Positions 21,043 through 31,909 of a stretch of 35,875 bases of DNA are shown here, in pieces. Numbering within the stretch: the first letter of the stretch is position 1; every line of letters begins with the position of its first letter. Source of the DNA: an uncultured Prochlorococcus sp. (GTDB lineage: Bacteria > Cyanobacteriota > Cyanobacteriia > PCC-6307 > Cyanobiaceae); NCBI GenBank assembly GCA_902535025.1, contig CACARV010000007.1, positions 1 to 35,875 of the forward strand, read 5' to 3'. The notes beneath the pieces are model-generated. The model worked only from the letters and a program-made list of their open reading frames with translations. It was not told the DNA's origin and ran no database searches. The position numbers were made by a program, and so were the translations under genes.

Positions 21043-21765
21043 ATGGCTATAAGAATAAATAAATATTTAAGTGAAGCCGGTTACTGTTCTAGAAGAGGGG
21101 CAGATAGGTTAGTTGAAGAAGGAAAAGTAACCATTAATGGTGAAATTTCAGAAATGGGTACTAAGGTAAATGAAGGTGATCAAGTAGAAGTCGAAGGTCA
21201 AATAATACAAAAATCAACAAAACAAAAAAACATATACTTGGCCTTTAATAAACCTATTGGAATTGTATGTACAACCGATAGAAGAGTGGAACCCGACAAT
21301 ATCATAGACTTCATAAATTATCCCACAAGAATTTTTCCTATTGGAAGATTGGATAAGCCAAGTGAGGGATTAATTCTTTTAACTAACGATGGAGACATCG
21401 TAAATAAAATACTCAGAGCAAGAAATAACCATGAAAAAGAATATGTAGTAAGTCTTAATCATCCGATTAATAGTGACTTTATTCAAAGGATGAGTAACGG
21501 AGTTGAGATATTAGGTGTAAAAACTAAGAATTGTTTAGTTCATCAATTGGGTCCAAAAAAATTTAAGATAATACTTACTCAAGGACTTAACCGTCAGATT
21601 AGGAGAATGTGTGAGTCCTTAGGCTACAGAGTTCAATCATTAAAGCGTGTAAGAATTATGAATATTGAGTTAGACGTTCCAACAGGAAAATATCGCGAAC
21701 TTACTAAAGAAGAACTCTTAGAATTAAATAAATCAATCAAAAACTCTTTAAAAACATTTGACTAA
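21043..21765 (+). CDS. rluF: 23S rRNA pseudouridine synthase, RluF type
   Basis: The 240-residue protein has an N-terminal S4 domain (RINKYLSEAGYCSRRGADRL, residues 4-60) and an RsuA/RluB-type catalytic domain. The catalytic Asp104 lies in FPIGRLDKPSEGL, with LTNDGDIVNKILRARNNHEK, QGLNRQIRRMCESLGY and RIMNIELD. NKILRA-x-N-x-HEKEY and ILG-x-x-TK match E. coli RluF (U2604 of 23S rRNA) better than RsuA or RluB by memory. Length is normal and all motifs are intact. It lies alone. Confidence 0.85.
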   Translation: MAIRINKYLSEAGYCSRRGADRLVEEGKVTINGEISEMGTKVNEGDQVEVEGQIIQKSTKQKNIYLAFNKPIGIVCTTDRRVEPDNIIDFINYPTRIFPIGRLDKPSEGLILLTNDGDIVNKILRARNNHEKEYVVSLNHPINSDFIQRMSNGVEILGVKTKNCLVHQLGPKKFKIILTQGLNRQIRRMCESLGYRVQSLKRVRIMNIELDVPTGKYRELTKEELLELNKSIKNSLKTFD

Positions 21766-21929
21766 TCATTAAAATTGCCAAAAGCTTATAACTAGTGTGT
21801 ACGGCAGTAAGTGGAACTTGTTTTAGATTTCATATTGTATAAAGTATTTACTTATATTTGAATAGTGTTTATTTTGAATGCCCCTTCTACGAAATAACGC
21901 ATCATTTGAAGTTGGTCGATGAAATGATT

Positions 21930-22085
21930 TCATTGATTATCTTTTGGATTTAGAAAAGGTCTTATTTTATTCTTAACTTCATTGAGTGGATTTTCAATAA
22001 AATCAGGTTTTCTTATGACTGCAAGAATAATCCAACTTGTACTAATAGCAAGAACCATCACTAGATAGGCAAAACCATAAATCAT
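21930..22085 (-). CDS. 51-aa single-helix membrane protein
   Basis: MIYGFAYLVMVLAISTSWII forms one helix, followed by the polar tail RKPDFIENPLNEVKNKIRPF. It lies 25 bases after the gene at 22111-22278, likely in one operon. Function is unknown. Confidence 0.55.
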   Translation of the reverse strand: MIYGFAYLVMVLAISTSWIILAVIRKPDFIENPLNEVKNKIRPFLNPKDNQ

Positions 22086-22110
22086 AAATAACTTGATTAA
22101 TTTGTTTTTA

Positions 22111-22278
22111 TTATGCTTGTTTTTTAACTTCTAAAGAGGGTTCGATGTTTTTCTCTTTTTTAACCTTTTCCTCTTCATTAATGATTAATTTATTTTCGGT
22201 TCTTCCAAAATCATTTTTACCTGAAATAAAGAAAATAAGAGCACTAATAAAAAAAAGTGCAAAAAGCAAAACTTCCAT
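22111..22278 (-). CDS. 55-aa single-helix protein with charged tail
   Basis: MEVLLFALFFISALIFFISG is an N-terminal membrane helix. The remainder is a highly charged Lys/Glu tail (EEEKVKKEKN). It is the first of a two-gene operon with 21930-22085. The upstream gap 22279-22626 (348 bases) contains nothing I can assign apart from AT-rich sequence. Confidence 0.5.
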   Translation of the reverse strand: MEVLLFALFFISALIFFISGKNDFGRTENKLIINEEEKVKKEKNIEPSLEVKKQA

Positions 22279-22626
22279 ATGCTAATACCATTTAATTAAC
22301 TCCAAATTAGTTTAGACGTCTAATTTTAATCAATATCAAATAATACAACTTAGGGTAAATTTCGTGCAATTAAATTCAAAATATAAAATTCTTTAATTTC
22401 AATCTATTTAAGTAGATAACAACCTTAAAGTGTTATTTTTTACGATGGAACCTATTTAATAAGTATTATTTTTGTGATTAATAATTTTGATTTTCATTGT
22501 TTATTTACAATCTGGCAATTTAATCTTTATATTTAAGAATGCTTTTTTCTGCATTGTTTTATAAATTTTGAACTTGAATAAATCTTTAAAAATATTTAAG
22601 GTTATTTAGTAATTAATTTATAGAAA

Positions 22627-22842
22627 ATGTTAGGAACAATCAAAGATCCAACTCTATTTCTATTTTTGAGTAGTGTTGTAATTTTACTATTTGGCTCAAT
22701 AGGATATGGGATTTTTACAACAGTTGGCCCATCATCTTATAAGTTAAGAGACACCATTAAAGAGCATGCAAGAATGCATGAATTAGGGATTGCTCATGGT
22801 AACAATCATCACAACCATAATGAAGCAGAACATATTCACTGA
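22627..22842 (+). CDS. PsbN-like protein with His-rich tail
   Basis: The 71-residue protein has a single helix (FLFLSSVVILLFGSIGYGIF) followed by TTVGPSSYKLRD. This is the PsbN pattern (helix, then Y-x-x-F-G-P-P-S-x-x-L-x-D), but with V-G-P-S-S for F-G-P-P-S. Where PsbN ends in D-P-F-x-x-H-E-D, this continues into KEHARMHELGIAHG and a His-rich end (NNHHNHNEAEHIH) that could bind metal. PsbN assists PSII assembly; this is a paralogue with a new tail. Function is inferred only. Confidence 0.6.
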   Translation: MLGTIKDPTLFLFLSSVVILLFGSIGYGIFTTVGPSSYKLRDTIKEHARMHELGIAHGNNHHNHNEAEHIH

Positions 22843-23116
22843 GAAAATATAAATGTATTTATATTTTTGATTCAGAATTAACAACATAATTCTTCTTTAT
22901 TTTTCTATTATTTTGGTTGACTAATCAAAATGCCATTTGTACAAATTAATAAAGTTACTTCTAATAAATAATTTTAAGAACGTGATTAAATAGCTTTGTA
23001 AAGCTATAACTTGCTGCATTTTTACCCCATTTACGGATTAGATGAATCATTTGATACAGCCATATCTCGGCAGCTGTTTACATAAAGTAACATTTGAGTA
23101 TTATATTTAAAAAACA

Positions 23117-23233
23117 ATGGATTCAAACAAGGATATTCTCAACAGAGCCATTGGAAGACCAGCAATGATGGCTTTCATGATCTTAGTGGGAACATATTTA
23201 ACAACAGGTCAGCTTATCCCAGGAGTTTTTTAA
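23117..23233 (+). CDS. hli: High-light-inducible protein, short form
   Basis: The 38 residues MDSNKDILNRAIGRPAMMAF... TYLTTGQLIPGVF form one pigment-binding helix. The N-R-A-I-G-R-P-A-M-M-A-F core replaces the usual E-x-x-N-G-R-x-A-M-x-G-F, so the first Glu ligand position (L-N-R-A) is degenerate. The GQ-x-IPG end is typical of short Hlis. The stop abuts the ATG of the next hli, giving a coupled pair. Hlis protect photosystems under light stress. Confidence 0.85.
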   Translation: MDSNKDILNRAIGRPAMMAFMILVGTYLTTGQLIPGVF

Positions 23234-23378
23234 ATGGAAAAAAAAAAATCAATCCAGAAATATTGATCCTCAAAAAATAAGAGCAGAGAATTTAAATGGT
23301 AAATTTGCTCTTGTCGGTCTAATTGCTCTAGTGGGAGCATACATTACATCTGGACAAATTATTCCTGGAATTATTTAA
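23234..23378 (+). pseudogene. hli: Second hli of the pair, frameshifted at an A11 run after the start
   Basis: ATG 23234 is followed by GA11TC. As written, the ATG frame ends at TGA after ten codons. With one A fewer, the gene reads MEKKNQSRNIDPQKIRAEN, then LNGKFALVGLIALVGAYITS and GQIIPGII, a normal Hli with E-N-L-N-G-K-F-A-L-V-G. The domain is intact. Either it is a real +1 frameshift, an assembly error in the homopolymer, or the A11 run allows polymerase slippage that restores the frame in some transcripts. Confidence 0.7.
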
Positions 23379-23473
23379 AAAATATTAATTTCTAATTTCT
23401 TCAAGATATCTGGCTATGCAAGACAAGAAATTACACAGAATTGCGCTAAACCTTTAACTTGGATAATAAAAAA

Positions 23474-23728
23474 ATGGCAAAACCTACTAACGAACTTAAA
23501 TCAACTTCCTTCACAGAAGTAATTGAACTAGAAAGGATAGTTACTCCAGATGAGGAAAAAAGAGTTGATCATATTTTTGTAAGAAGAAAGAAAATATGTA
23601 CTCGTCATCCTGAAGGTTTCGCGACAGAAGAGATTGCGAGATTTGATATTGCCTGGCCAGAAGAACCAAAAGATGAGTTAAAGGCGTCAACCGAAGAAAA
23701 AGAAGAGATTAAAATCAATACTGATTGA
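23474..23728 (+). CDS. Hypothetical 84-aa acidic soluble protein
   Basis: The start at ATG 23474 (MAKPTNELKSTSFTEV) is preferred over TTG 23459. The protein reads ERIVTPDEEKRVDHIFVRRK, ICTRHPEGFATEEIARFDIA and WPEEP, then an acidic tail. It has one Cys, no helix in the membrane and no recognised family. It is in the same orientation as the hli pair, 95 bases downstream. Confidence 0.6.
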   Translation: MAKPTNELKSTSFTEVIELERIVTPDEEKRVDHIFVRRKKICTRHPEGFATEEIARFDIAWPEEPKDELKASTEEKEEIKINTD

Positions 23729-23798
23729 ATAGTCCAAAAATTCTTTCTATAAATATATTCAAGTAGTAATTTTTAATTGGATTTTTAACGAAGCTTTT

Positions 23799-23817: not shown

Positions 23818-23880
23818 TTAAAGAAGTGTTATTTTGAATTAAATAGAACTAAAAAAACTGTCAAATGGAGGTTGACGCTT

Positions 23881-23994
23881 ATGAAAATTCCGGACGAAAG
23901 CATGAAAGAAATTAGAGAAAGCGGATACGACCAAAAGCTTTTACATAACTACAAAAGAGAGCTATTAGGTAGCGATAAAGAATATGATGTTTAA
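23881..23994 (+). CDS. Family A 37-aa acidic helical protein, copy 2
   Basis: MKIPDESMKEIRESGYDQKL continues LHNYKRELLGSDKEYDV. A good Shine-Dalgarno, GGAGG, lies 10 bases before the ATG, and the sequence TGGAGGTTGACG-x-TTATG is shared with the third copy at 26832 (TGGGGGTTGACGATTATG). Homologous to 17980-18090. Its end overlaps the family B start by eight bases. Function is unknown. Confidence 0.7.
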   Translation: MKIPDESMKEIRESGYDQKLLHNYKRELLGSDKEYDV

Positions 23995-24121: not shown

Positions 24122-24317
24122 TTGGAAGAGAAAGGTTTTAATATAACTCAGGGATTGGCTTTACTACTATTGAAGCCCTTAGATTTACCTGCAAATCTTG
24201 TCTTAAATCTGATTATTTTTATAACTAATCCTAAAAACAATATTGGGTATTAAACAAAAAACCCTCCAGAAATTCAAACTCCGAAAGGGTTATTAAATTG
24301 ACTCGTACTATATAAAG

Positions 24318-24607
24318 TTAATCTATGTCTTGGGGTAAACGAAGAATGGACTCATTGAGGTCTTGCCTCAATTCATCTATAGCAAAAATTTTTAAACCCC
24401 CGCTACTTTTTGTTCCTCTAGTCGTTTTTTTAGAATTGCATAATTCTGTGAAGCCCATTTTCGAGAAATATCTAATTCAGCATCTAACAACTTTTGAAGT
24501 GATTTGATTATTTTAAAAACTTCTTCGAAGCCTAGATAAATTATTAAAAGCAACTTAATTATATTTATTGCAACAGCCACTAACTTTTCAATCCTTTGAT
24601 CTTGCAT
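24318..24607 (-). pseudogene. Helical protein with one membrane segment, frameshifted at G5
   Basis: From ATG 24607: MQDQRIEKLVAVAINIIKLL, then IIYLGFEEVFKIIKSLQKLL and RKWASQNYAILKKRLEEQKV. At GCGGGGGTT the frame closes; with one extra G it continues GLKIFAIDELRQDLNESILR and LPQDID to TAA 24318. The whole would be 96 residues, a membrane helix plus coiled-coil-like body. No family is recognised. A homopolymer indel, real or technical, is the simplest explanation. Confidence 0.5.
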
Positions 24608-24724
24608 TTGAACTTATTGAAGCCCACTAAAATTAACAGAGGTAAGAAATTATGCAAATTTTAGTGAGACAGATGATAATACACAAATCACATAAAGAGA
24701 AAATATCAAATCGCTGAGACTCCA

Positions 24725-24775
24725 ATCGGGGGCTATACGATTAGAGCCTGCGACCTAGTACTCCCAAACTACTCG
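24725..24775 (-). repeat. Degenerate tRNA-Pro 3' relic (relic 1)
   Basis: The plus strand reads AATCGGGGGC, GATTAGAGCCTGCGACCTAG and TACTCCCAAA. This aligns with the T-arm and anticodon-arm part of the intact tRNA-Pro (TCGGGGCG, GATTCGAACCTGCGACCTAG, TGCTCCCAAA) with several changes. It is the most decayed of four relics. The remaining gap 24608-25135 holds TAACTAAG-x-GAGTGGAACGAG at about 24823, a sequence shared with 29010-29050, and otherwise nothing. Confidence 0.65.
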
Positions 24776-25135
24776 ATCTATGATTTGGGGATATCTAATA
24801 AAACAAGGCTATGAGTAGGTTATAACTAAGCGAGTGGAACGAGTTTGATACTCAATAATGTACAAATATATATTTCTATATACAAGATACATAGCCTAAT
24901 TACCCCCTCTTGTGCCCCCTTTAGCGACCTAGTGCCACCAGCCGAAACGATCGATAGTGAGATTTATTTTTTTTTCAAAATACTTTTAAAAATTATTTTT
25001 TTTTTACATTTTACTTAAAAGTACTTGCTTATTATTTCTTAAATTCGCATAAAACTAATAACAAGGTTTACTTCCCTTTTTTATGTCTTATAGTTAATCA
25101 ATTTCTTATATTAAAAAATTTTTCTTTAACAAATA

Positions 25136-25816
25136 ATGGAAATTTCAAAAACAATTAAATTTGTTGGTCCTTTTAATCAACAACTCATAAAAAAACTTTT
25201 CCCAACATTTTTAATTTTAAATGTTTTATTATTGCCATTAAAAATTTTTTTTTCATCTTCTTTTTTAACTCAAATAATTTCAGCCTTCATAGAGGGAATT
25301 ATTTTTATATTTATAATTGAAGCTTTGAAAAAAATTTATAATAATGAGAAATACTTAAAACCAAGATTTTCTAATATTAAAATAACTCTTCAGAAACTTT
25401 TAAGGATTTTTATAGCAAGCATTCTTCCAATTATTTTCACTTTACTTGGTTTGGTTTGTTTAATTATCCCAGGTTTTATTCTTGCGAAAAGATATATGTA
25501 TGTTCAAGTTATTTCCGAAGAAGAATCAATAGGCCCTTTAAATGCCATGAAAAAGAGTAAGCTTATTTCAAAAAATCAAACTTGGGAAATTTTTAGCTAC
25601 ATTTTTTGGCTGTCTGTTGGTTATGGCATTATTGGATTTCTGATTGTAAGTATTTTGGGATCTTTAATAAGCGCATTCATAGTTAGTGCTTTTAATCCTC
25701 TTGGTTTAGTTTCTTGGATTGTAAGTATATCTTTAGGTTGGGTTTCAACGGTTCATATTTCGTCTTTAATAGTCAAAGGCTATCAAGAGGGGAAATTATC
25801 AATTACTAAAAATTAA
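25136..25816 (+). CDS. Polytopic membrane protein, unknown function
   Basis: The 226-residue protein has about five to six transmembrane segments (about 22-40, 42-64, 84-110, 157-180, 183-203) with a cytosolic segment RYMYVQVISEEESIGPLNAM then KKSKLISKNQTWEIF in the middle. The Y-V-Q-V-I-x-E-E-x-x-I-G-P-x-x-A-x-K-x-S element resembles membrane proteins of the YciC/GPDPase-membrane-domain type, where a related motif follows a P-G-x-x-L-x-x-R turn (here IPGFILAKRYM). It is the only gene between tRNA-Pro relics 1 and 2, so it is probably cargo. Confidence 0.6.
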   Translation: MEISKTIKFVGPFNQQLIKKLFPTFLILNVLLLPLKIFFSSSFLTQIISAFIEGIIFIFIIEALKKIYNNEKYLKPRFSNIKITLQKLLRIFIASILPIIFTLLGLVCLIIPGFILAKRYMYVQVISEEESIGPLNAMKKSKLISKNQTWEIFSYIFWLSVGYGIIGFLIVSILGSLISAFIVSAFNPLGLVSWIVSISLGWVSTVHISSLIVKGYQEGKLSITKN

Positions 25817-25900
25817 ATTATTGTTTGGTACATTTTAGATCAAAGTACTTCAAACGAGTGCTCCTTAGAGTGCACCTTTCTCAAGATGAGACAATAAGCA

Positions 25901-25926
25901 ATAAAAAAGCGAGTAGAGAGACTCGC
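25901..25926 (-). terminator. Displaced copy of the tRNA-Pro terminator (with relic 2)
   Basis: On the minus strand GCGAGT-CTCTCT-ACTCGC is followed by TTTTTTATT. It stands in the same position relative to the tRNA relic as the terminator of the intact tRNA-Pro at 31091-31117. Confidence 0.7.
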
Positions 25927-25949
25927 TAGCATGACTAGTTTTATAAGAG

Positions 25950-26000
25950 TCGGGGCGAAAGGATTCGAATCTGCGATCTAGTGGTCTCAAAGCTCCCGCC
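25950..26000 (-). repeat. tRNA-Pro 3' relic (relic 2)
   Basis: The plus strand reads TCGGGGCGAAAGGATTCGAA, TCTGCGATCTAG and CTCCCGCC, matching the 3' half of the intact tRNA-Pro with about six changes. The 5' half is missing. The gap 25817-26194 contains only this relic and its terminator. Confidence 0.75.
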
Positions 26001-26194
26001 ATAAAAGGTCATAACTGAGACTTATAGCTAATAACACTACATTTAGAGAAAAAAGAGTTGACTAATTCTTACTAGTTTGGAATGATATTCGTTCCTTATA
26101 GCTTAACTTTAAAGGGGAATGCTCTCGCCCAAATAATTAATTGACGCGCAAATAAAGAACATAATTACTATGATAAAAAAAATTTAAATTACAT

Positions 26195-26365
26195 ATGAAA
26201 TCAATTCTTACGAATAAAAGATCAAAAGCAATTTTGGGTATAGGTTTAATAGCAATAGGAATTGGTGCAATTTCAAAGAAGGTTATAAGCTATCCAACTG
26301 GTGGCTGCATGAAAGGTACTCAAGAATTGACTTTGAACAAAGGGATTAATAAGTTCTTTATTTAA
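26195..26365 (+). CDS. 56-aa membrane-anchored mini-protein
   Basis: MKSILTNKRSKAILGIGLIA then IGIGAISKKVISYPTGGCMK and a polar end: a basic N-terminus, a short Gly/Ile-rich helix and GGCMKGTQEL with one Cys. It lies between relics 2 and 3 and is probably cargo. No family is recognised. Confidence 0.5.
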   Translation: MKSILTNKRSKAILGIGLIAIGIGAISKKVISYPTGGCMKGTQELTLNKGINKFFI

Positions 26366-26377
26366 CGAATAAGCGTT

Positions 26378-26479
26378 TCATTTTTTAAAAGTCATCTTGA
26401 AGGTTAAATACGCAAAGCCACTTAGTAATAACAAACTAACAACGCCGTAAGTAATAGCTATTCCATACATATGGGTCAT
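26378..26479 (-). CDS. 33-aa single-helix membrane peptide
   Basis: MTHMYGIAITYGVVSLLLLS, then GFAYLTFKMTFKK: one helix with a basic end. The ATG overlaps the stop of the upstream 47-aa gene (ATGA), so it is the third gene of a small operon starting at 26832. Confidence 0.55.
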   Translation of the reverse strand: MTHMYGIAITYGVVSLLLLSGFAYLTFKMTFKK

Positions 26480-26619
26480 TTACCAATAATACAGATATAT
26501 TTTTTTCGATAACTTACTTCTGCGCCAAAAATAATTAAACCAATTTGATCTTGTTTTTTTTGTTCAGTCGAACGATCGTAGTAACTATCACTAGCAATTA
26601 ATATTTTAGTTTCAATCAT
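26476..26619 (-). CDS. Hypothetical 47-aa soluble protein
   Basis: MIETKILIASDSYYDRSTEQ, then KKQDQIGLIIFGAEVSYRKK and YICIIGK, a strand-helix-strand pattern. It follows the family A gene by 12 bases and overlaps the next gene by four. It is the middle gene of a three-gene operon. No family is recognised. Confidence 0.55.
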   Translation of the reverse strand: MIETKILIASDSYYDRSTEQKKQDQIGLIIFGAEVSYRKKYICIIGK

Positions 26620-26631
26620 ATTCTTCGGGAG

Positions 26632-26832
26632 TTAAGCAGCATCATATTCATCCCTATCTTCAAGCTCTCTCATAAATCTTTTATCTAATAAGTAGTTGTC
26701 TAAATGCTCTGGATTGTTATTGTCTTTAATTTCGTTATCGCTTTCTAATAGCTCTCTTATGTAGGCAATTATAAGCTCTTGATCGTATCCACTTTCTCTA
26801 ATTTCTTTTAGCCTTTCGTCTGGAATTTCCAT
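26632..26832 (-). CDS. Family A protein, extended copy 3 (66 aa)
   Basis: The start at ATG 26832 (MEIPDERLKEIRESGYDQEL) aligns with copy 2, including the Shine-Dalgarno-like GGGGG ten bases upstream. The in-frame TTG at 26841 is rejected. After IIAYIRELLESDNE the protein has a further 30 residues (NPEHLDNYLLDKRFMRELED, RDEYDAA) that may be a second diverged repeat of the same unit (Y-x-x-x-x-R/L-M-R-E-L, D-E-Y-D). Family B is absent here. The gene diverges from the promoter box at 27079. Confidence 0.65.
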   Translation of the reverse strand: MEIPDERLKEIRESGYDQELIIAYIRELLESDNEIKDNNNPEHLDNYLLDKRFMRELEDRDEYDAA

Positions 26833-27078
26833 AATCGTCAACCCCCATGTGACATTTTTTAGAGGAAAATAAGCTTAAATAAGCTAGTAATAGCCTTATT
26901 AAGAGCAAATTAGAGCCTATATACGCATACTTACGAAAAAATAATGAAAAAGCAAGAAAATCGCTAAAAAAACAGGGTGTATAAAGCTATTAGCCGCAAT
27001 CATTTTTCTGCTTGTGCGTAACATCAACCCATAGTTGTTTCTTTACACCTTCTACCCTCGGCCTATACTTATTAACGA

Positions 27079-27120
27079 TTGACAGTCGATCTAACATAGA
27101 GGGAAAAAACCTCTTTTTTT
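27079..27120 (+). promoter_or_regulatory. TTGACA box and hairpin leader of 27121
   Basis: Plus strand reads TTGACAGTCGATC then TAACAT (27079-27097). The 23-base leader contains AGAGG-GAAAAAA-CCTCT followed by a T-run and ATG. With 17582-17624 it is the best-conserved box and leader. The rest of 26833-27078 shows nothing. Confidence 0.6.
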
Positions 27121-27279
27121 ATGGCAACTGAAACTTGGATATTAGATGGCGTTAAAGAATTAGATGATAAGGAAAGAGTTATATTTTTTTATTCAATACG
27201 AGCGAGAAAAAAGAAGAGTTTCAAAGGGGTTTTAATAACTATGTTATTAGGATTTACGAGAATACAAAATTTTGTTTGA
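27121..27279 (+). CDS. Hypothetical 52-aa protein behind the TTGACA leader
   Basis: MATETWILDGVKELDDKERV, then IFFYSIRARKKKSFKGVLIT and MLLGFTRIQNFV: an acidic N-terminus, basic middle and hydrophobic end. There is no known family and no Shine-Dalgarno; the ATG follows the hairpin T-run. It lies between relics 2 and 3. Confidence 0.5.
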   Translation: MATETWILDGVKELDDKERVIFFYSIRARKKKSFKGVLITMLLGFTRIQNFV

Positions 27280-27346
27280 GGCAATTTTTAGGGAAAGACT
27301 TTTTGAGGGAAATATATTATTAGCTGAGACTTACTTCTATAACTGA

Positions 27347-27392
27347 TCGGGGCGACAGGATTCGAACCTGCGACCTAGTGCTCCCAAAGCAC
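27347..27392 (-). repeat. tRNA-Pro 3' relic (relic 3)
   Basis: TCGGGGCGACAGGATTCGAA, CCTGCGACCTAG and TGCTCCCAAAGCAC are identical to the intact tRNA-Pro through the anticodon stem, then the match ends. It is the least decayed relic, with no adjacent terminator copy. Confidence 0.85.
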
Positions 27393-27420
27393 TTAATAGC
27401 CCTAGTGCAGCACTAGGTTT

Positions 27421-27515
27421 TTAAGCTATAACTAATTTCTTGCGTAGTGATGCGTAATTTGTCTAGTTAAATAAAGCAACATTTGTCCATAGTTTGTCCA
27501 TTTTTTCAAAATCAG
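27421..27515. repeat. Relic 3 flank with TTTGTCC direct repeats
   Basis: Contains GCTATAACTA, CTTGCGTAGTGATGCG, AATTTGTC, ATTTGTCCAT and AGTTTGTCCAT, shared with 20908-21006. The repeated TTTGTCC elements next to a tRNA attachment core could be recombinase arm sites. The rest of 27280-27693 shows no gene. Confidence 0.5.
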
Positions 27516-27693
27516 GTGCAGCTTTACCCCTCTTTTTTTTATGCAAGTAGTAAGCGTTATAAATCAGTTTTTAGGTCATAATCAAGAATTATTGACTATA
27601 ACAAAATAATTTGATGTATATATCTTTCAATATTTAAATTACTTTAAGGCTGTAAATTATATTTTTTTTAACAAGCTTATTTCTCATTACATA

Positions 27694-28665
27694 GTGGGCA
27701 TTTTCAAAAAAACTCTCATTTTATCTTCTACAATTTCATTAATACTTTCTCAATCTGCGATGGCTTCAAAAAGATTGAGTGGAGCTGGTGCATCATTTCC
27801 TTCAAAAATTTATACCAGGTGGTTTTTTGACTTAGCTAAATCTGGAGGCTCTAGAGTTAATTATCAAGCAGTAGGTTCTGGATCTGGAAGAAAAGCTTTC
27901 ATAGATGAAACTGTGAATTTTGGAGCGTCAGATGATCCTATGAAAGATTCTGATATACAGAAAGTTAAAAGAGGACTTGTTCAAATACCTATGATAGGTG
28001 GCACAATTGCCTTTGGATATAACTACGATTGCGATTTAAAACTAACACAAGAACAAGCTGTTCAAGTAGCAATGGGAATGATAAAAAATTGGAAGGAATT
28101 AGGATGTAAGTCAGGTAAATTAACTTGGACGCATCGTTCTGATGGCTCAGGCACTACTAAAGCTTTTACCAATTCTATGGAGGCATTTTCTACAACTTGG
28201 AATTTAGGTACTGGTAAATCAGTTAAATGGCCTTCTGGAGTTGGAGCAAAAGGTAATTCGGGTGTTGCAGGTGTTATTCAAAACACTCCAGGCGCAATTG
28301 GTTATGTAAACCAGTCATACATTAAAGGTAATGTTAAGGCTGCTGCACTTCAAAATCTTTCTGGTGAATTCGTTACCCCCAATACTGAATCAGGCGCAAT
28401 AGCTTTAAACGGCATTAAACTTGATGAAAACTTAGCTGGTATAAATCCTAACCCTGAAGATAAAGGAGCTTATCCAATAGCAACCTTGACTTGGATACTT
28501 GCTTATGAAAAAGGTAATGGCAGGAATACTAATGCAATTCAAGATACATTCTATAAATTACTCAGTGATGAATACCAAGATAAAGCTCCTGCCTTAGGTT
28601 TCGTTCCCTTGAAAGGTGAAATTTTAAAAAAATCAATTGAAGCTGTTGGAATAATAGGAAGGTAA
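27694..28665 (+). CDS. pstS: Phosphate ABC transporter substrate-binding protein PstS
   Basis: The 323-residue protein has a signal peptide (1-24, ending SAMA), then GAGASFPSKIYTRWFFD, YQAVGSGSGRKAF, FGASDDPM, RSDGSGTTKAF and TPGAIGYVNQSY, the phosphate-binding loops of PstS. It binds periplasmic phosphate for the Pst importer. The start is GTG (GTG-GGC). It is alone here: pstCAB are not in the window, and the gene lies between tRNA-Pro relics 3 and 4, so it is probably an extra copy carried as cargo. Regulation by phosphate is expected from the family, but no clear Pho box was seen. Confidence 0.93.
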   Translation: MGIFKKTLILSSTISLILSQSAMASKRLSGAGASFPSKIYTRWFFDLAKSGGSRVNYQAVGSGSGRKAFIDETVNFGASDDPMKDSDIQKVKRGLVQIPMIGGTIAFGYNYDCDLKLTQEQAVQVAMGMIKNWKELGCKSGKLTWTHRSDGSGTTKAFTNSMEAFSTTWNLGTGKSVKWPSGVGAKGNSGVAGVIQNTPGAIGYVNQSYIKGNVKAAALQNLSGEFVTPNTESGAIALNGIKLDENLAGINPNPEDKGAYPIATLTWILAYEKGNGRNTNAIQDTFYKLLSDEYQDKAPALGFVPLKGEILKKSIEAVGIIGR

Positions 28666-28725
28666 TTTAGAACTAGTAAGCCAAGAAATAAAAAATAAAA
28701 AAGGGATGAATAATAGTTTTTTCAT
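28633..28725 (-). pseudogene. Signal-peptide fragment overlapping the pstS end
   Basis: ATG 28725 opens MKKLLFIPFLFFISWLTSSK, a convincing secretion signal. The frame then runs into the antisense of the pstS C-terminus and stops after 30 residues. It looks like the 5' end of a secreted protein gene whose remainder was replaced. Confidence 0.3.
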
Positions 28726-28809
28726 TAACTGATTAAAGAAATAATAAGGGTCAGTATCTTTTCAGCAATAAATCTTCCATTCATTAAACAAAAAGGATTT
28801 TATCCTTCT

Positions 28810-28828
28810 ATGTTAGATAGTCTGTCCA
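28810..28828 (-). promoter_or_regulatory. TTGACA-box-like element with hairpin leader
   Basis: Minus strand reads TGGACAGACTATC then TAACAT, followed by AAGG-ATAAAAT-CCTT and TTTGTTTA, with ATG 25 bases on (28784), opening a frame of only 19 codons. The box overlaps the TTTGTCC repeats, so its identity is ambiguous. Confidence 0.4.
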
Positions 28829-28858
28829 TAATTTGTCCATTTCACTTATGGACAAATT
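28821..28858. repeat. TTTGTCCA repeat cluster near relic 4
   Basis: CTGTCCATA, ATTTGTCCAT (28831-28840) and the inverted ATGGACAAAT (28848-28857) lie just before the terminator copy and relic 4. A structurally equivalent cluster built on TTTGTTGGCT lies at 31046-31084. Confidence 0.6.
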
Positions 28859-28864
28859 TCCCAA

Positions 28865-28890
28865 TAAAAAAGCGAGTCTGGGTAACTCGC
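28865..28890 (-). terminator. Displaced tRNA-Pro terminator (with relic 4)
   Basis: GCGAGT/ACTCGC stem (28872-28877 with 28885-28890) followed on the minus strand by a T-run. The block AAGCGAGTCTGGGTAACTCG, then CTAGTATGACTTGG, is identical to that beside the intact tRNA. Confidence 0.85.
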
Positions 28891-28914
28891 TAGTATGACT
28901 TGGTTTTTAAATGG

Positions 28915-28967
28915 TCGGGGCGACAGGATTCGAACCTGCGACCTAGTGTTCCCATATCACTCCCTCG
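28915..28967 (-). repeat. tRNA-Pro 3' relic (relic 4)
   Basis: TCGGGGCGACAGGATTCGAA and CCTGCGACCTAGTG are identical to the intact gene. The anticodon arm (TTCCCATATCAC) is altered and the D-arm/acceptor half is missing. It is bounded by the displaced terminator on its left. The gap 28968-29273 contains TAACTAAGAGAGTGGAACGA (shared with 24.8 kb) and a doubtful 38-codon frame at 29136-29252. Confidence 0.85.
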
Positions 28968-29273
28968 TAAATATGAGATTAATCAATATTTCCCTAATAT
29001 AACTAGGGTTTAACTAAGAGAGTGGAACGAGTTTGATTATCAATATTGCGGTAACTATATAGTCGTATATAGTTTGTAAATAAGTTTAGCGCTCCCCTCT
29101 ATGACATAGTGCCCGATATTGGCTAGGTTGAACAAATGATACTTTTTGGGGAACTTTATCTAATGAATCGGTTTATAGCTTTTTATAATTATTTTTTAAA
29201 AGCATCTCCACATATGAAATATAGTAAGCCAGGGAATTTTGATATAAGTTAATTAGGTATATTTACTTGTTTA

Positions 29274-31001
29274 GTGAAAAAATATAATTTCTTGAAAGCT
29301 AGAAAGATTAAATTTAAGCTTAGTAATTTATTTACTCTTTCATTAGGGGTAGTTTTATTAATAGCAGAGCCAGTTAATAAAGTTTTTGCTAATCCTGTAA
29401 CAGTGACAGTAAATGGTACTTCCTATTCTGTTGGAGCTGTAAAATTTGACAGTTATAGCGACGATATTTCAGTTCTGCAATCTCAAGTTTGGTGGGGGGA
29501 TGAGGCGTTGGCTATAAGTTTTGCTGATGTAGTAAGAGCTAACCTTCCTCTTGAAGATGATAGTACTAATTTCGGACCCTTATTTGGTATTGCAAATCCA
29601 TCAGGGAGAGAATTAAACCTTGTTTTTTGGGGACCTGGATCAGTAAATACAAGTTTTGCATCAGGTAGTACATATCCTCCTTGGGATGTGAATTTTGAAT
29701 ATTACTACGCTTACTTAACTCAAACAGATGATGGAGATGCAACCTATTCAATTACAGGTCAAACCTATGCAGGAAAAACATTAACAGCTGGAGTTTCTTC
29801 AGATGATCCAGATGGGAATGGAACAGTTAGCTCTTATACTTGGCAGTCTTCCTCTGATGGAAGTAACTGGAGTAATATTAATGGCGCAACAAGTTCTTCT
29901 TTTACTGTTACTTCTTCAGAGGAAGGAAAACATATCAGAGTTATAGTTGAATATACAGATGGAGAAGGGACAAGTGAATCAGTTACGGCTTCATCAATAA
30001 CAATTAGTCAGCTTCATACTGAATGGGTGCAACCATATGCAGCGATGCAAAATCTTGGCTTAAAATCAATTCATAATAATAGAGATTTAGTTTTAGCAAA
30101 AGCAGGAAAATGCAATAACTATGGTTGGGTAATTGGAGATTCTGATTATTGCGCTTATACCAATGCCAATAATTCAATTTCTAATGTAGAAGGAGATAGC
30201 ACGAAGGGTTCTTACGAAACAACTTCTTTTAATTCCTCTCTAAATTTAGAGAAAACTATAAATGCAAAATGGAAAGCAGGAATTGCCTATGGTGTTGGAT
30301 CTTCTAATTTAAATGGTTATGATTTCTCAAATACAACAGCAAGTTTAAGTTCTACCAATACACATTATTCAATTTATGCAGTAAAGAAAGTAAGCGATAA
30401 ATTTACCCTAAAAGGGATTATTGGAGGATCTGACTTTGACTACAAAGGAGAAAGAAATTATTCAACTACATCAGCAACATCTTCTTACGATAGCGATGGA
30501 TATACAGCAGAAATAAATGGTAGTTGGGATATTAAAAAGACTATAAAAAATACGAAAACCCCAATCCGTTTACAACCATCTTTTGGGGTTGCATATGCAG
30601 CTCACACTCAAGATGGATTTAGTGAATCTGGCAGCGGAGATTTAATAACAATAGATCCTAATCAAGCAGAATCTCTACTATTTAAAACTGGAATTGCAGT
30701 AGACAAACAAATCCTTATGGAAGGAGGAAAATGGTTATTGGTCCCATCAATAGCACTTAATTATGATGTTGATGCTTATGCTTATTCTGGTCATAGAGGA
30801 CTAAAAGGATCTTTAACAGAAAGTAGTACAGCGTCTACAAGAGTATCTGCAAAGAACATGGGAGAACAAACTGGTTCTGTAAAAGTGGGAGCAGATTTTG
30901 TAGTAACAAAAGATTTAATGTTTAATTTAAATGCAAAATATGGCTTGGCAGATGGAGGAGATGAGCAGTCCTATGGCGGCGGTTTCAGATTCGTATTCTA
31001 A
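29274..31001 (+). CDS. Outer-membrane beta-barrel (autotransporter-like) protein with Ig-like domain
   Basis: The 575-residue protein starts with GTG and a long signal peptide (to about residue 39, KVFA). Residues about 155-243 form an Ig-like module (DPDGNGTVSSYTWQSSSDGS, WSNINGATSSSFTV, GKHIRVIVEYTDGEGTSESV). The last 300 residues are amphipathic strands typical of an autotransporter barrel, ending YGLADGGDEQ, then YGGGFRFVF with terminal Phe. The short N-terminal passenger would be surface-exposed, and phage or grazer contact is a plausible inferred role. It lies alone between relic 4 and the intact tRNA-Pro, so it is probably the youngest cargo. Confidence 0.75.
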   Translation: MKKYNFLKARKIKFKLSNLFTLSLGVVLLIAEPVNKVFANPVTVTVNGTSYSVGAVKFDSYSDDISVLQSQVWWGDEALAISFADVVRANLPLEDDSTNFGPLFGIANPSGRELNLVFWGPGSVNTSFASGSTYPPWDVNFEYYYAYLTQTDDGDATYSITGQTYAGKTLTAGVSSDDPDGNGTVSSYTWQSSSDGSNWSNINGATSSSFTVTSSEEGKHIRVIVEYTDGEGTSESVTASSITISQLHTEWVQPYAAMQNLGLKSIHNNRDLVLAKAGKCNNYGWVIGDSDYCAYTNANNSISNVEGDSTKGSYETTSFNSSLNLEKTINAKWKAGIAYGVGSSNLNGYDFSNTTASLSSTNTHYSIYAVKKVSDKFTLKGIIGGSDFDYKGERNYSTTSATSSYDSDGYTAEINGSWDIKKTIKNTKTPIRLQPSFGVAYAAHTQDGFSESGSGDLITIDPNQAESLLFKTGIAVDKQILMEGGKWLLVPSIALNYDVDAYAYSGHRGLKGSLTESSTASTRVSAKNMGEQTGSVKVGADFVVTKDLMFNLNAKYGLADGGDEQSYGGGFRFVF

Positions 31002-31045
31002 AAAAAATGATCCGCAATATCCTGCATGATTCTGAAAACTACTTA

Positions 31046-31084
31046 TTTGTTGGCTATTTGTTGGCTGCTATGAGCCAACAAGTA
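31046..31084. repeat. TTTGTTGGCT repeat cluster before tRNA-Pro
   Basis: TTTGTTGGCT (31046-31055), the same again (31057-31066) and the inverted AGCCAACAA (31073-31081). The layout and position equal those of the TTTGTCCA cluster at 28821-28858 but the sequence differs. Confidence 0.65.
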
Positions 31085-31090
31085 AATGTA

Positions 31091-31117
31091 ATAAAAAAGC
31101 GAGTCTGGGTAACTCGC
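31091..31117 (-). terminator. Terminator of tRNA-Pro
   Basis: Minus strand: GCGAGT (31112-31117), loop, ACTCGC (31099-31104), then TTTTTTAT, 25 bases after the tRNA 3' end. Confidence 0.85.
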
Positions 31118-31141
31118 TAGTATGACTTGGATTTGATTGAG

Positions 31142-31215
31142 TCGGGGCGACAGGATTCGAACCTGCGACCTAGTGCTCCCAAAGCACCCGCGCTACCAAG
31201 CTGCGCCACGCCCCG
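31142..31215 (-). tRNA. tRNA-Pro (UGG)
   Basis: The minus strand folds into a full cloverleaf of 74 nt: acceptor CGGGGCG/CGCCCCG with discriminator A, D-loop AGCTTGGTAG, anticodon loop CTTTGGGAG with UGG, and T-arm GCAGG-TTCGAAT-CCTGT. It is the only complete copy of the sequence repeated as relics 1-4 to its left, and is probably the integration site. Confidence 0.95.
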
Positions 31216-31396: not shown

Positions 31397-31909
31397 ATGA
31401 AAAAACTAGAAGCATTGATATCTACATATAGTGATTTCCCAAAAAAGGGAATAGATTTTAAAGATGTTCTTGGAATAATTCAAAATCCTGAAATTTTTCG
31501 AGAATTAATATCAGAAATGTCTTCAAGTGAAATTGTAAAAAACGCTGAAGCAATAATCTCAATAGATGCTAGAGGTTTTATTTTTGGTTCAGCAATTGCC
31601 TTGCATACTTCGATGCCTATGATAGTTGCTAGAAAACCTGGAAAGCTGCCTGGCAAAATTATTGAACAAAAATATAATTTAGAGTATGGAGAAAATTCAC
31701 TATCAATTCAAAAAAGTGCTTTAGCAAAATTCAATTCATTCGTAATTGTTGATGATCTTCTTGCTACAGGTGGCACTGTTGAATGTGTTTCAAACTTACT
31801 TAGTGGTAATGGTAAGGAAATAAAGGGGTTGTTAACTGTTGTTGAGTTGAGTTATTTAAAAGGAAAAGCAAGATTTAATTTCCCTGTTAAGTCAATTATT
31901 TCATTCTAA
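31397..31909 (+). CDS. apt: Adenine phosphoribosyltransferase
   Basis: The 170-residue protein starts with the KKGIDFKDV region, then SIDARGFIFGSAIA, ARKPGKLPGKIIEQKYNLEY and the PRPP-binding loop FVIVDDLLATGGTVE (115-129). These are the standard Apt motifs for salvage of adenine to AMP with PRPP. Length is normal. It lies alone and marks the start of the core genome to the right of the tRNA-Pro hotspot. Confidence 0.95.
   Translation: MKKLEALISTYSDFPKKGIDFKDVLGIIQNPEIFRELISEMSSSEIVKNAEAIISIDARGFIFGSAIALHTSMPMIVARKPGKLPGKIIEQKYNLEYGENSLSIQKSALAKFNSFVIVDDLLATGGTVECVSNLLSGNGKEIKGLLTVVELSYLKGKARFNFPVKSIISF

Follow-up and report, generated by a model that had tools for sequence, protein, structure and literature searches.

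The window analysed here, the complete 35,875-bp contig CACARV010000007.1 (C7) of a 0.98-Mb genome of an uncultured Prochlorococcus sp., contains an intact tRNA-Pro(TGG) gene, the integration target (31141-31215, minus strand, ARAGORN). Between this gene and a gene for an rluB-type pseudouridine synthase to its left, the DNA is very probably a stack of integrated cassettes, inserted by an integrase that reads repeated arm words at the cassette ends, with integrase-less units mobilised in trans. Partial tRNA copies divide the stretch and its counterparts in other genomes into stacked units, integrase-less units were inserted independently in different genomes, and matched arm repeats occur in more than half of the segments. 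With less assurance, the evidence leans towards an open, integron-like and address-coded cassette system at tRNA-Pro of Prochlorococcus, in which dozens of words serve one site, integrase N-terminal domains are swappable, integrase-less cassettes with phosphate, arsenate, restriction and other cargo move in trans, and diversity arises because equal words cannot stably share an array.

Each unit is bounded by the tRNA-Pro 3' half, with the newest cassette next to the tRNA. In the proposed mechanism, a lambda-like tyrosine recombinase would bind the arm repeats with its N-terminal domain and the anticodon region of the tRNA, where the crossover is expected, with its remaining part. A circular unit would insert and bring a new tRNA 3' half, often with a terminator, and the old 3' half would shift one step to the left as a relic. 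Cassettes without a recombinase may move in trans through the recombinase of another element that shares both their cell and their arm word. That words hardly ever recur within an array suggests that different words could allow many units to share one target without cross-excision. Mosaics of arm words, recombinase N-terminal domains and cargo are observed, and these parts may have been exchanged as modules over evolution.

Relic arrays and independent insertion

A BLAST search of the 161 bp around tRNA-Pro against its own genome returned the tRNA itself and exactly four relics, all in one orientation, at 28873-28960 (90% identity), 27347-27392 (100%), 25921-25999 (84%) and 24729-24768 (85%). 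Their local alignment scores were 38, 46, 33 and 22, and the best control score was 11 in 20 first-order Markov sequences of window length on one strand. The four relics claimed in an earlier sequence-only reading of this DNA are thus real, and they are the sole other matches in the genome. That reading had also placed the terminator hairpin of the tRNA beside the relics at 28.9 and 25.95 kb. Copies are present there: the 41-base stretch 28863-28903 is letter-identical to 31090-31130, and the copy at 25900-25940 still folds (predicted RNA energies of -10.7, -10.7 and -9.2 kcal/mol for the copies at 28863-28903, 31090-31130 and 25900-25940). No terminator hairpin was predicted beside the 27.3 and 24.7 kb relics. 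Decay increasing leftwards, as it had further claimed, holds as a trend over 47 arrays and not strictly within the window, where the 27.3 kb relic (46/46) is more intact than the 28.9 kb relic.

The genus search set comprised 266 genomes. The best tRNA-Pro matches supplied the first locus regions; genomes matching pstS strongly, with a few others, came next, and genomes containing the arm word TGTCCAT last, so that pstS and TGTCCAT cassettes are over-represented in the locus set. Before counting, the set was cleared of duplicated named loci, of the overlapping L129 and of six loci from outside Prochlorococcus; the G149 region and the named locus L066 (AG-355-P07) are identical DNA. Contig ends cut many of the compared loci. 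The first genome-wide relic scoring covered three candidates per genome only, and relics were recounted on the fetched DNA.

Counting the window, an intact tRNA-Pro was present in 77 non-redundant loci, and 67 of these have relics on its 3' side, up to nine in one locus. The farther a relic lies from the tRNA, the poorer its quality (rho -0.42 for 217 relics in 47 arrays with at least three relics each). Perfect relics made up 91% at the first rank, followed by 70%, 49%, 43% and 29% at the fifth; the few relics at ranks 6-9 were perfect in 25-50%, with no further fall. This decay with distance fits the newest insertion lying beside the tRNA.

A total of 209 locus pairs shared a whole cassette between relics in different genomes, with at least 90% coverage both ways. 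All are integrase-less, and many belong to one family, a 4.3-kb pstS-GAPDH-arsJ cassette. The older neighbour was visible in both arrays for 116 of these pairs and was unrelated in 115, so that conservation in place is refuted and the units were acquired separately, with presence and absence changing at the relic borders as the sequence-only reading had proposed. The single cargo blocks exactly between relics that it envisaged also exist. The pstS cassette (27393-28913) is full-length 99.3% identical to the first cassette of genome G167, which lies beside its tRNA and has a different older neighbour. In the background of these two genomes, trmFO-region DNA is 88% and the RluB protein 79% identical, and other stretches beside trmFO are 69-87% identical, with one 28-bp piece at 93%. 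The cassette with a 226-aa cargo gene (element 1) recurs relic-to-relic in locus L341 of genome G097 at 88.7% identity and in another setting, with a TGTCCAC right arm in one flank and TGAGGGA arms in the opposite one. Among 266 genomes, three including that of the window have its gene at 93% identity or more, and five others have it at 29-36%. In the window units the tRNA 3' half is restored and a displaced fragment lies at the far end, as in islets. Integrase-carrying versions were looked for as well, and 9 of 274 segments in the compared loci carry an integrase.

On its 5' side, the tRNA of the window is flanked by an adenine phosphoribosyltransferase-like gene (apt; 31397..31909, plus strand, PF00156), which was used to fetch the named Prochlorococcus loci. 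In G167 (contig C1, ~35.7-37.4 kb) there is no apt match beside the intact tRNA; a 68% match lies ~170 kb away (207.9 kb), near a second relic pair, and this displacement may point to rearrangement through tRNA-Pro sites. Insertions between tRNA-Pro and apt (L015, L033, L040, L042, L078, L085 and others) leave 5'-half relics of the tRNA, with tRNA positions from ~34 of the window copy. None of 31 such 5'-side segments showed matched arms, and these elements are therefore kept apart from the arm model.

Arm words, cargo and integrases

Arm repeats were scored with two fixed-spacing tests. These replaced a first test for 7-mers within the 260-bp ends, which detected 161 of 204 segments but also 62 of 144 interior controls. 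In the strict test, an exact pair of 7-mers at the right end with an inverted third copy, at a spacing of 10-12 bp, was found in 40 of 269 segments of at least 500 bp, in 39 of the 40 at 11 bp. Of these 40 segments, 33 repeat their 7-mer as a pair at the left end, compared with 2 of 1390 left ends of other-word segments and 1 of 1110 interior windows. The relaxed test found matched pairs in 166 of 287 segments, with a period of 11 in 122 and of 12 in 44; a period of 13 was allowed and never seen. The same test applied to ends of different loci gave 189 matches in 5658 (3.3%). Matched arms begin ~80-140 bp from the left relic, and those on the right lie mostly ~90-100 bp, in some cases 50-80 bp, before the right relic.

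The arm word varies between cassettes, and 38 families were distinguished by hand grouping on cores of 5-7 letters. The same word never recurred within one array (0 of 141 pairs, 6.9 expected, P 0.0015), in label shuffles that ignore the relatedness of genomes. When words were compared by shared 6-mers, 1 of 141 pairs agreed, with 9.8 expected, and none of 1000 such shuffles was as low; among adjacent units no pair agreed, with 4.5 expected (P 0.007). Searching 266 genomes for the pattern TGTCCAT-NNNN-TGTCCAT gave 20 places in 11 of them, and its backward-read control gave none. Outside the window, 17 of 18 places start at most ~140 bp from a tRNA-Pro relic or tRNA; the exception (L054, 4809) lies ~0.8 kb inside a segment.

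Arm words and cargo are separate modules. Cassettes with TGTCCAT arms carry, among other cargo, Mrr-type nucleases, a UvrD helicase and its partner, a DnaJ protein, a T5orf172 protein and a protein with a borderline GTPase match, and pstS was found with the words TGTCCAT, GATCGCCC, TAATCGCTA and AGCTACCC. One 2.6-kb cargo is flanked by AGCTCCCC arms in locus L047 and by TCGCCC arms in L050; the homology begins 8-9 bp ahead of a conserved 11-mer hinge, CGACCTAGTGC, which also occurs in the tRNA. With up to two mismatches, this hinge is present at 105 of 287 left ends, in 8 of 780 interior windows and at 2 of 287 right ends, and many left ends of types C and D keep it. It also stands, in full or with a mismatch, shortly before the integrase genes in L029, L034, L053 and L061, and not in L018, L051 and L130. 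In L020 the hinge appears fused to the relic and the left arms are absent. In G113, a pstS 99% identical over cassette positions 127-1311 only lies in a segment without the ends of the pstS cassette. The 4.3-kb cassette (L043, L052, L057, L049 and others) carries pstS, an ArsJ-associated GAPDH gene and an ArsJ transporter gene, and often lies next to the tRNA; its copies in different genomes reach 99.9% identity.

The integrase family near tRNA-Pro is ~400-470 aa long and was found in 103 of 266 genomes at E 1e-20. Among 82 open reading frames (ORFs; duplicates included), 76 lie at most 450 bp from a tRNA-Pro relic or tRNA, and the remaining six mostly fell at the very start of the available sequence. 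The window has no ORF of this family, and a search of its own, 61%-complete genome at E 1e-20 found none either. A representative had no Pfam match and matched PHROG integrases at E 4e-14 to 8e-6. The catalytic residues R, K, R, H and Y are invariant, with Tyr in place of the usual first His of box II. The predicted model of the L330 enzyme (mean predicted local distance difference test 84, predicted template modelling score 0.53) has a clear tyrosine-recombinase fold, matching the Tn1549 integrase (6emy) in Foldseek at E 4e-4 and lambda Int (1z19, VIA) with Z 13.2 and a root-mean-square deviation (rmsd) of 3.2 over 252 aligned residues. Lambda Int (top), XerH, an integron integrase and the Tn1549 integrase were tied within 1 Z unit, and lambda is therefore not claimed as the single nearest relative.

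In the N-terminal part of the model, residues 5-50 form one helix and three strands, after which a further helix follows. The N-terminus was covered only by the full-length lambda structures 1z1g, 1z1b and 5j0n at an rmsd of 9-17, with a tool that barely tests before residue 90; 1z1g gave Z 13.6 and an rmsd of 14.2 for 308 aligned residues over positions 2-391. Its position, its predicted strands and its covariation with the arm word suggest a putative arm-binding domain.

The words read at integrase-bearing elements were TTTGTTGGC (L321, L325), TTTGTCGGC (L318, L320), TTTGTCCGC (L330), TTTGACGGC (L329), TTTGTCCAC (L331), TTTGACGGA (L332, L333), TTGACATC (L323, L324, L328), TTTGAGGGA (L327), CTCGCTCA (L326) and AG..CCCC (L061, L053, L312, L290, L313, L314). 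At the sequence level, word and N-terminal domain covary among close integrases. Five pairs with different words (L320/L321, L320/L325, L330/L329, L330/L332 and L330/L333) are 94-98% identical outside the first ~57 residues and 29-38% identical inside them. The difference is smaller among L312, L313 and L314, where it is still largest in the N domain (0.78-0.84 vs 0.94-0.95), and the N domains of L053 and L290 agree at 0.69 vs 0.90 elsewhere. Conversely, where distant bodies share a word, the N domains agree (L053/L312, 0.86 vs 0.47; L318/L320, 0.83 vs 0.68). For pairs at least 90% identical outside the N domain, its mean identity was 0.95 with the same word (48 mostly redundant pairs, range 0.51-1.00) and 0.56 with different words (9 pairs, range 0.29-0.86). 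A total of 82 of 162 integrase-less, arm-matched cassettes, from 15 of 37 families, share their word with an integrase-bearing element. A further family link via the core ACCAC was spurious and was removed, which changed this count from 90/166.

Some integrase-bearing elements are satellite-like. In three carriers scanned, two had a prohead protease-capsid fusion and an AAA ATPase, and one a primase-polymerase with an AAA domain. The 7-9 kb integrase-bearing elements L034_2, L029_3, L059_4 and L125_1 share a reverse-oriented gene of ~540 aa. Scans of L034 and L125 identified it as a prohead protease-capsid fusion and located an AAA ATPase gene within each of these elements. One element with a tRNA-Pro integrase also contains a second tyrosine recombinase, a short one of 192 aa (PF00589; L061:12764-13342). 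A 468-aa integrase with TTGCGTACA repeats lies directly 5' of the intact tRNA in L072, L028, L064, L111, L113 and L126, and the next relic beside it in L028, L064 and L126 consists of tRNA positions 14-47. No tRNA-Pro relic was found near the more distant family members L334-L338, which may use another target. The L331 integrase had no match in IMG/VR in a scan that detects close relatives only, and the arm-word search of that database was too unspecific. Searching for phage carriers by the tRNA 3' half gave only annotated cyanophage tRNA-Pro genes among the best 20 of 239 records.

Several observations weigh against a stack built by arm-reading integrases. No matched arms were found in 121 of 287 segments, including three of the four window elements, and elements of one array sometimes share arms at one end (10 of 996). 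The integrases L297 and L301 have different words and N domains only mildly apart (0.86 vs 0.95), and once identity outside the N domain drops below 75%, N-domain identity depends little on the word (0.51 vs 0.42-0.44), partly because a shared 7-mer counts there as the 'same word'. In roughly half of the 82 integrase ORFs no word could be read in the expected place, 22 of 37 integrase-less word families have no integrase-bearing counterpart in the sample, and none of the 47 unique integrases whose word could be read has that of the pstS cassette, TGTCCAT. Neither an excision product nor a circle was seen, and the genome of the window is 61% complete.

The alternative that survives best, although it is improbable, is that the cassettes are dead leftovers that lost their integrase by deletion and now spread only via homologous recombination between tRNA or relic sequences. 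Some cassettes do derive from integrase carriers, since L062_1 keeps a 55-aa integrase remnant and CGACCTAGTGC, which precedes several integrase genes, is retained at many cassette left ends; the relic-leader fusion in L020 resembles a short-homology deletion. However, integrase-less cassettes at least 99% identical lie exactly between relics, some at different ranks, beside unrelated older neighbours and in genomes of different species clusters. In many cassettes the arms are exactly matched at both ends, which the decay of dead elements would not preserve, and a relic of ~47 bp is short for frequent homologous exchange. It is more doubtful still that the heptamers are operators or replication iterons rather than recombinase arm sites. 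Direct repeats of about one helical turn are also typical of those, but the heptamers lie near both ends at narrow offsets, are present on cassettes such as the pstS one, where no regulator or replication gene was seen, and change together with the N-terminal domain among close integrases. A tandem duplication or segmental shuffling of the tRNA region without site-specific integration is next to impossible and was rejected: the relics are partial copies in direct orientation, but duplication would copy the tRNA flanks too, cargo differs between relics, most relics break near the anticodon arm, and cargo-plus-relic units recur exactly relic-to-relic in other genomes.

Elements of the window

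The left flank of the stack is the core gene rluB (21043..21765, plus strand), with a match in 126 of 148 genomes, counted over those at least 80% complete plus the window's own, with a few fragments included. Where rluB and tRNA-Pro share one contig in the same orientation, they are ~4.6-46 kb apart, as judged by eye. The oldest recognisable element (21766..23797, plus strand) has a decayed left end of the AG..CCCC type (type C) directly after rluB; because this end begins at the rluB stop (21765), rluB is taken as the left core flank. No relic was found for this element. Its positions 21890-23797 are 87% identical to L020 over 1,952 columns, and its psbN-like cargo sits between relics with matched arms in L047, L050 and L060. 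The cargo ORF (22627-22842, 71 aa) matches Pfam PsbN at E 1.6e-4, below the cut-off.

The right end of a further old element (24655..24728, plus strand) closes in relic 1 (24729..24768, minus strand, a tRNA 3' part at 85%). This relic is taken to close an older element because the adjoining DNA to its left (24658/24660-24728) is 86-90% identical to DNA immediately left of relics in L059, L072 and L122. It had been regarded as the last boundary of the stack; it is a boundary but not the oldest, since element ends continue left to rluB. The stretches 23852-23985 and 24253-24662, the second of which spans a 71-aa ORF, recur in many arrays in varying place and orientation.

Each interval to the right carries separate cargo, in agreement with the sequence-only reading. 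Element 1 (24769..25999, plus strand) contains the 226-aa cargo ORF (25136-25816), whose product has no Pfam match, the terminator (25900-25945) and relic 2 (25946-25999). Decayed AGTGCCCC-type arms were recognised by eye on the left (~24899-24919) and right (25856-25876), with the hinge CGACCTAGTGC at 24925. Element 2 (26000..27392, plus strand) has small-gene cargo (ORF 26632-26841, minus strand), no terminator and relic 3 (27347-27392). Its right arm is TGAGGGA (27304) with decayed copies before it, and no left arm was recognised; its small-gene DNA is common to the segments L011_1, L042_4, L054_2 and L083_2, which have TGTCCAC arms.

Element 3, the pstS cassette (27393..28954, plus strand), comprises pstS (27694-28665; PF12849, TIGR00975), the terminator (28863-28903) and relic 4 (28914-28954). 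Its arms are two copies of TGTCCAT on the left (27484-27501) and two on the right (28823-28840) with an inverted copy (28848-28854), and it is the only window element that passed the matched-arm test; elements 1, 2 and 4 have decayed or unmatched ends and failed. Element 4 (28955..31187, plus strand) carries an autotransporter-barrel gene (29274-31001, PF03797) and the terminator (31090-31130) and ends in the tRNA 3' half. Its left end has a single AGCGCTCCCC (29088) and the leader GACATAGTGC (29103), and its right arms are two copies of TGTTGGC (31048-31065) with an inverted copy (31074-31080). The two ends do not match, and the element is probably a fusion of two elements.

Relation to known systems

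The arm words provide a testable rule for the enzyme-free movement of pstS, the ArsJ arsenate pair and Mrr-type restriction genes between Prochlorococcus species: the arm word is read, and the matching integrase is then sought. Close integrases that differ nearly only in the N domain can serve as natural domain-exchange experiments on arm-site recognition by tyrosine recombinases.

Tycheposons of Prochlorococcus were reportedly described by Hackl et al. in Cell in 2023. They are treated second-hand in passages of PMC10872708, PMC10187409 and PMC11389934, the first of which quotes a length of 4-200 kb. Like tycheposons, the elements described here are tRNA-targeted, have a tyrosine recombinase in relatives and carry nutrient cargo, some integrase-bearing tRNA-Pro members are satellite-like, and in the window the tRNA gene and a displaced fragment form the bounds. 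Unlike tycheposons, the window elements have no tyrosine recombinase and are 1.2-2.3 kb long, and 84% of 292 compared segments are shorter than 4 kb. The description of the locus as tycheposons without integrase thus stands in part: arm-matched cassettes use the same target and often the same arm words as integrase-bearing elements, but in the window the integrase is missing and the size lies below 4 kb. We regard the window elements as non-autonomous partners rather than tycheposons.

The arrays resemble integrons and clusters of attC sites lacking integron-integrases (CALIN), as presented in passages of PMC11389934, in having tandem cassettes with the newest by the attachment gene and integrase-less arrays that are possibly mobilised in trans. 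They differ in using a tRNA half instead of attC as the site, in a lambda-like enzyme with an extra N-terminal domain and in the many tRNA-Pro cassettes that have their own arm word. With lambda and P2/P4-type phages they share a tyrosine integrase, a tRNA core site and paired repeats on both sides, but here many arm words serve one core target and most units have no integrase. A tRNA core site is a feature of P4-like integration. In the S-subunit of type I restriction systems, recognition domains are exchanged; the integrases are alike in that a recognition domain appears to be swapped while the remaining protein stays nearly identical, and unlike in that the presumed targets are recombination arm sites travelling with the element.

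Clusters of tRNA relics as such are already known, since PMC2784084 reports five pseudo-tRNA-Met genes in a Prochlorococcus island. The passages considered from PMC10872708, PMC10187409, PMC11389934, PMC12416821 and PMC2784084 make no mention of arm words or an N-domain code, and searches of an open-licence literature library yielded no recognisable account of such words for the elements at tRNA-Pro. Among published kinds, tycheposons come nearest. The matched arm repeats, the differences between words, the N-domain differences between close integrases and the sharing of words with integrase-bearing elements are new here, and they point to trans-mobilisation by an arm code.

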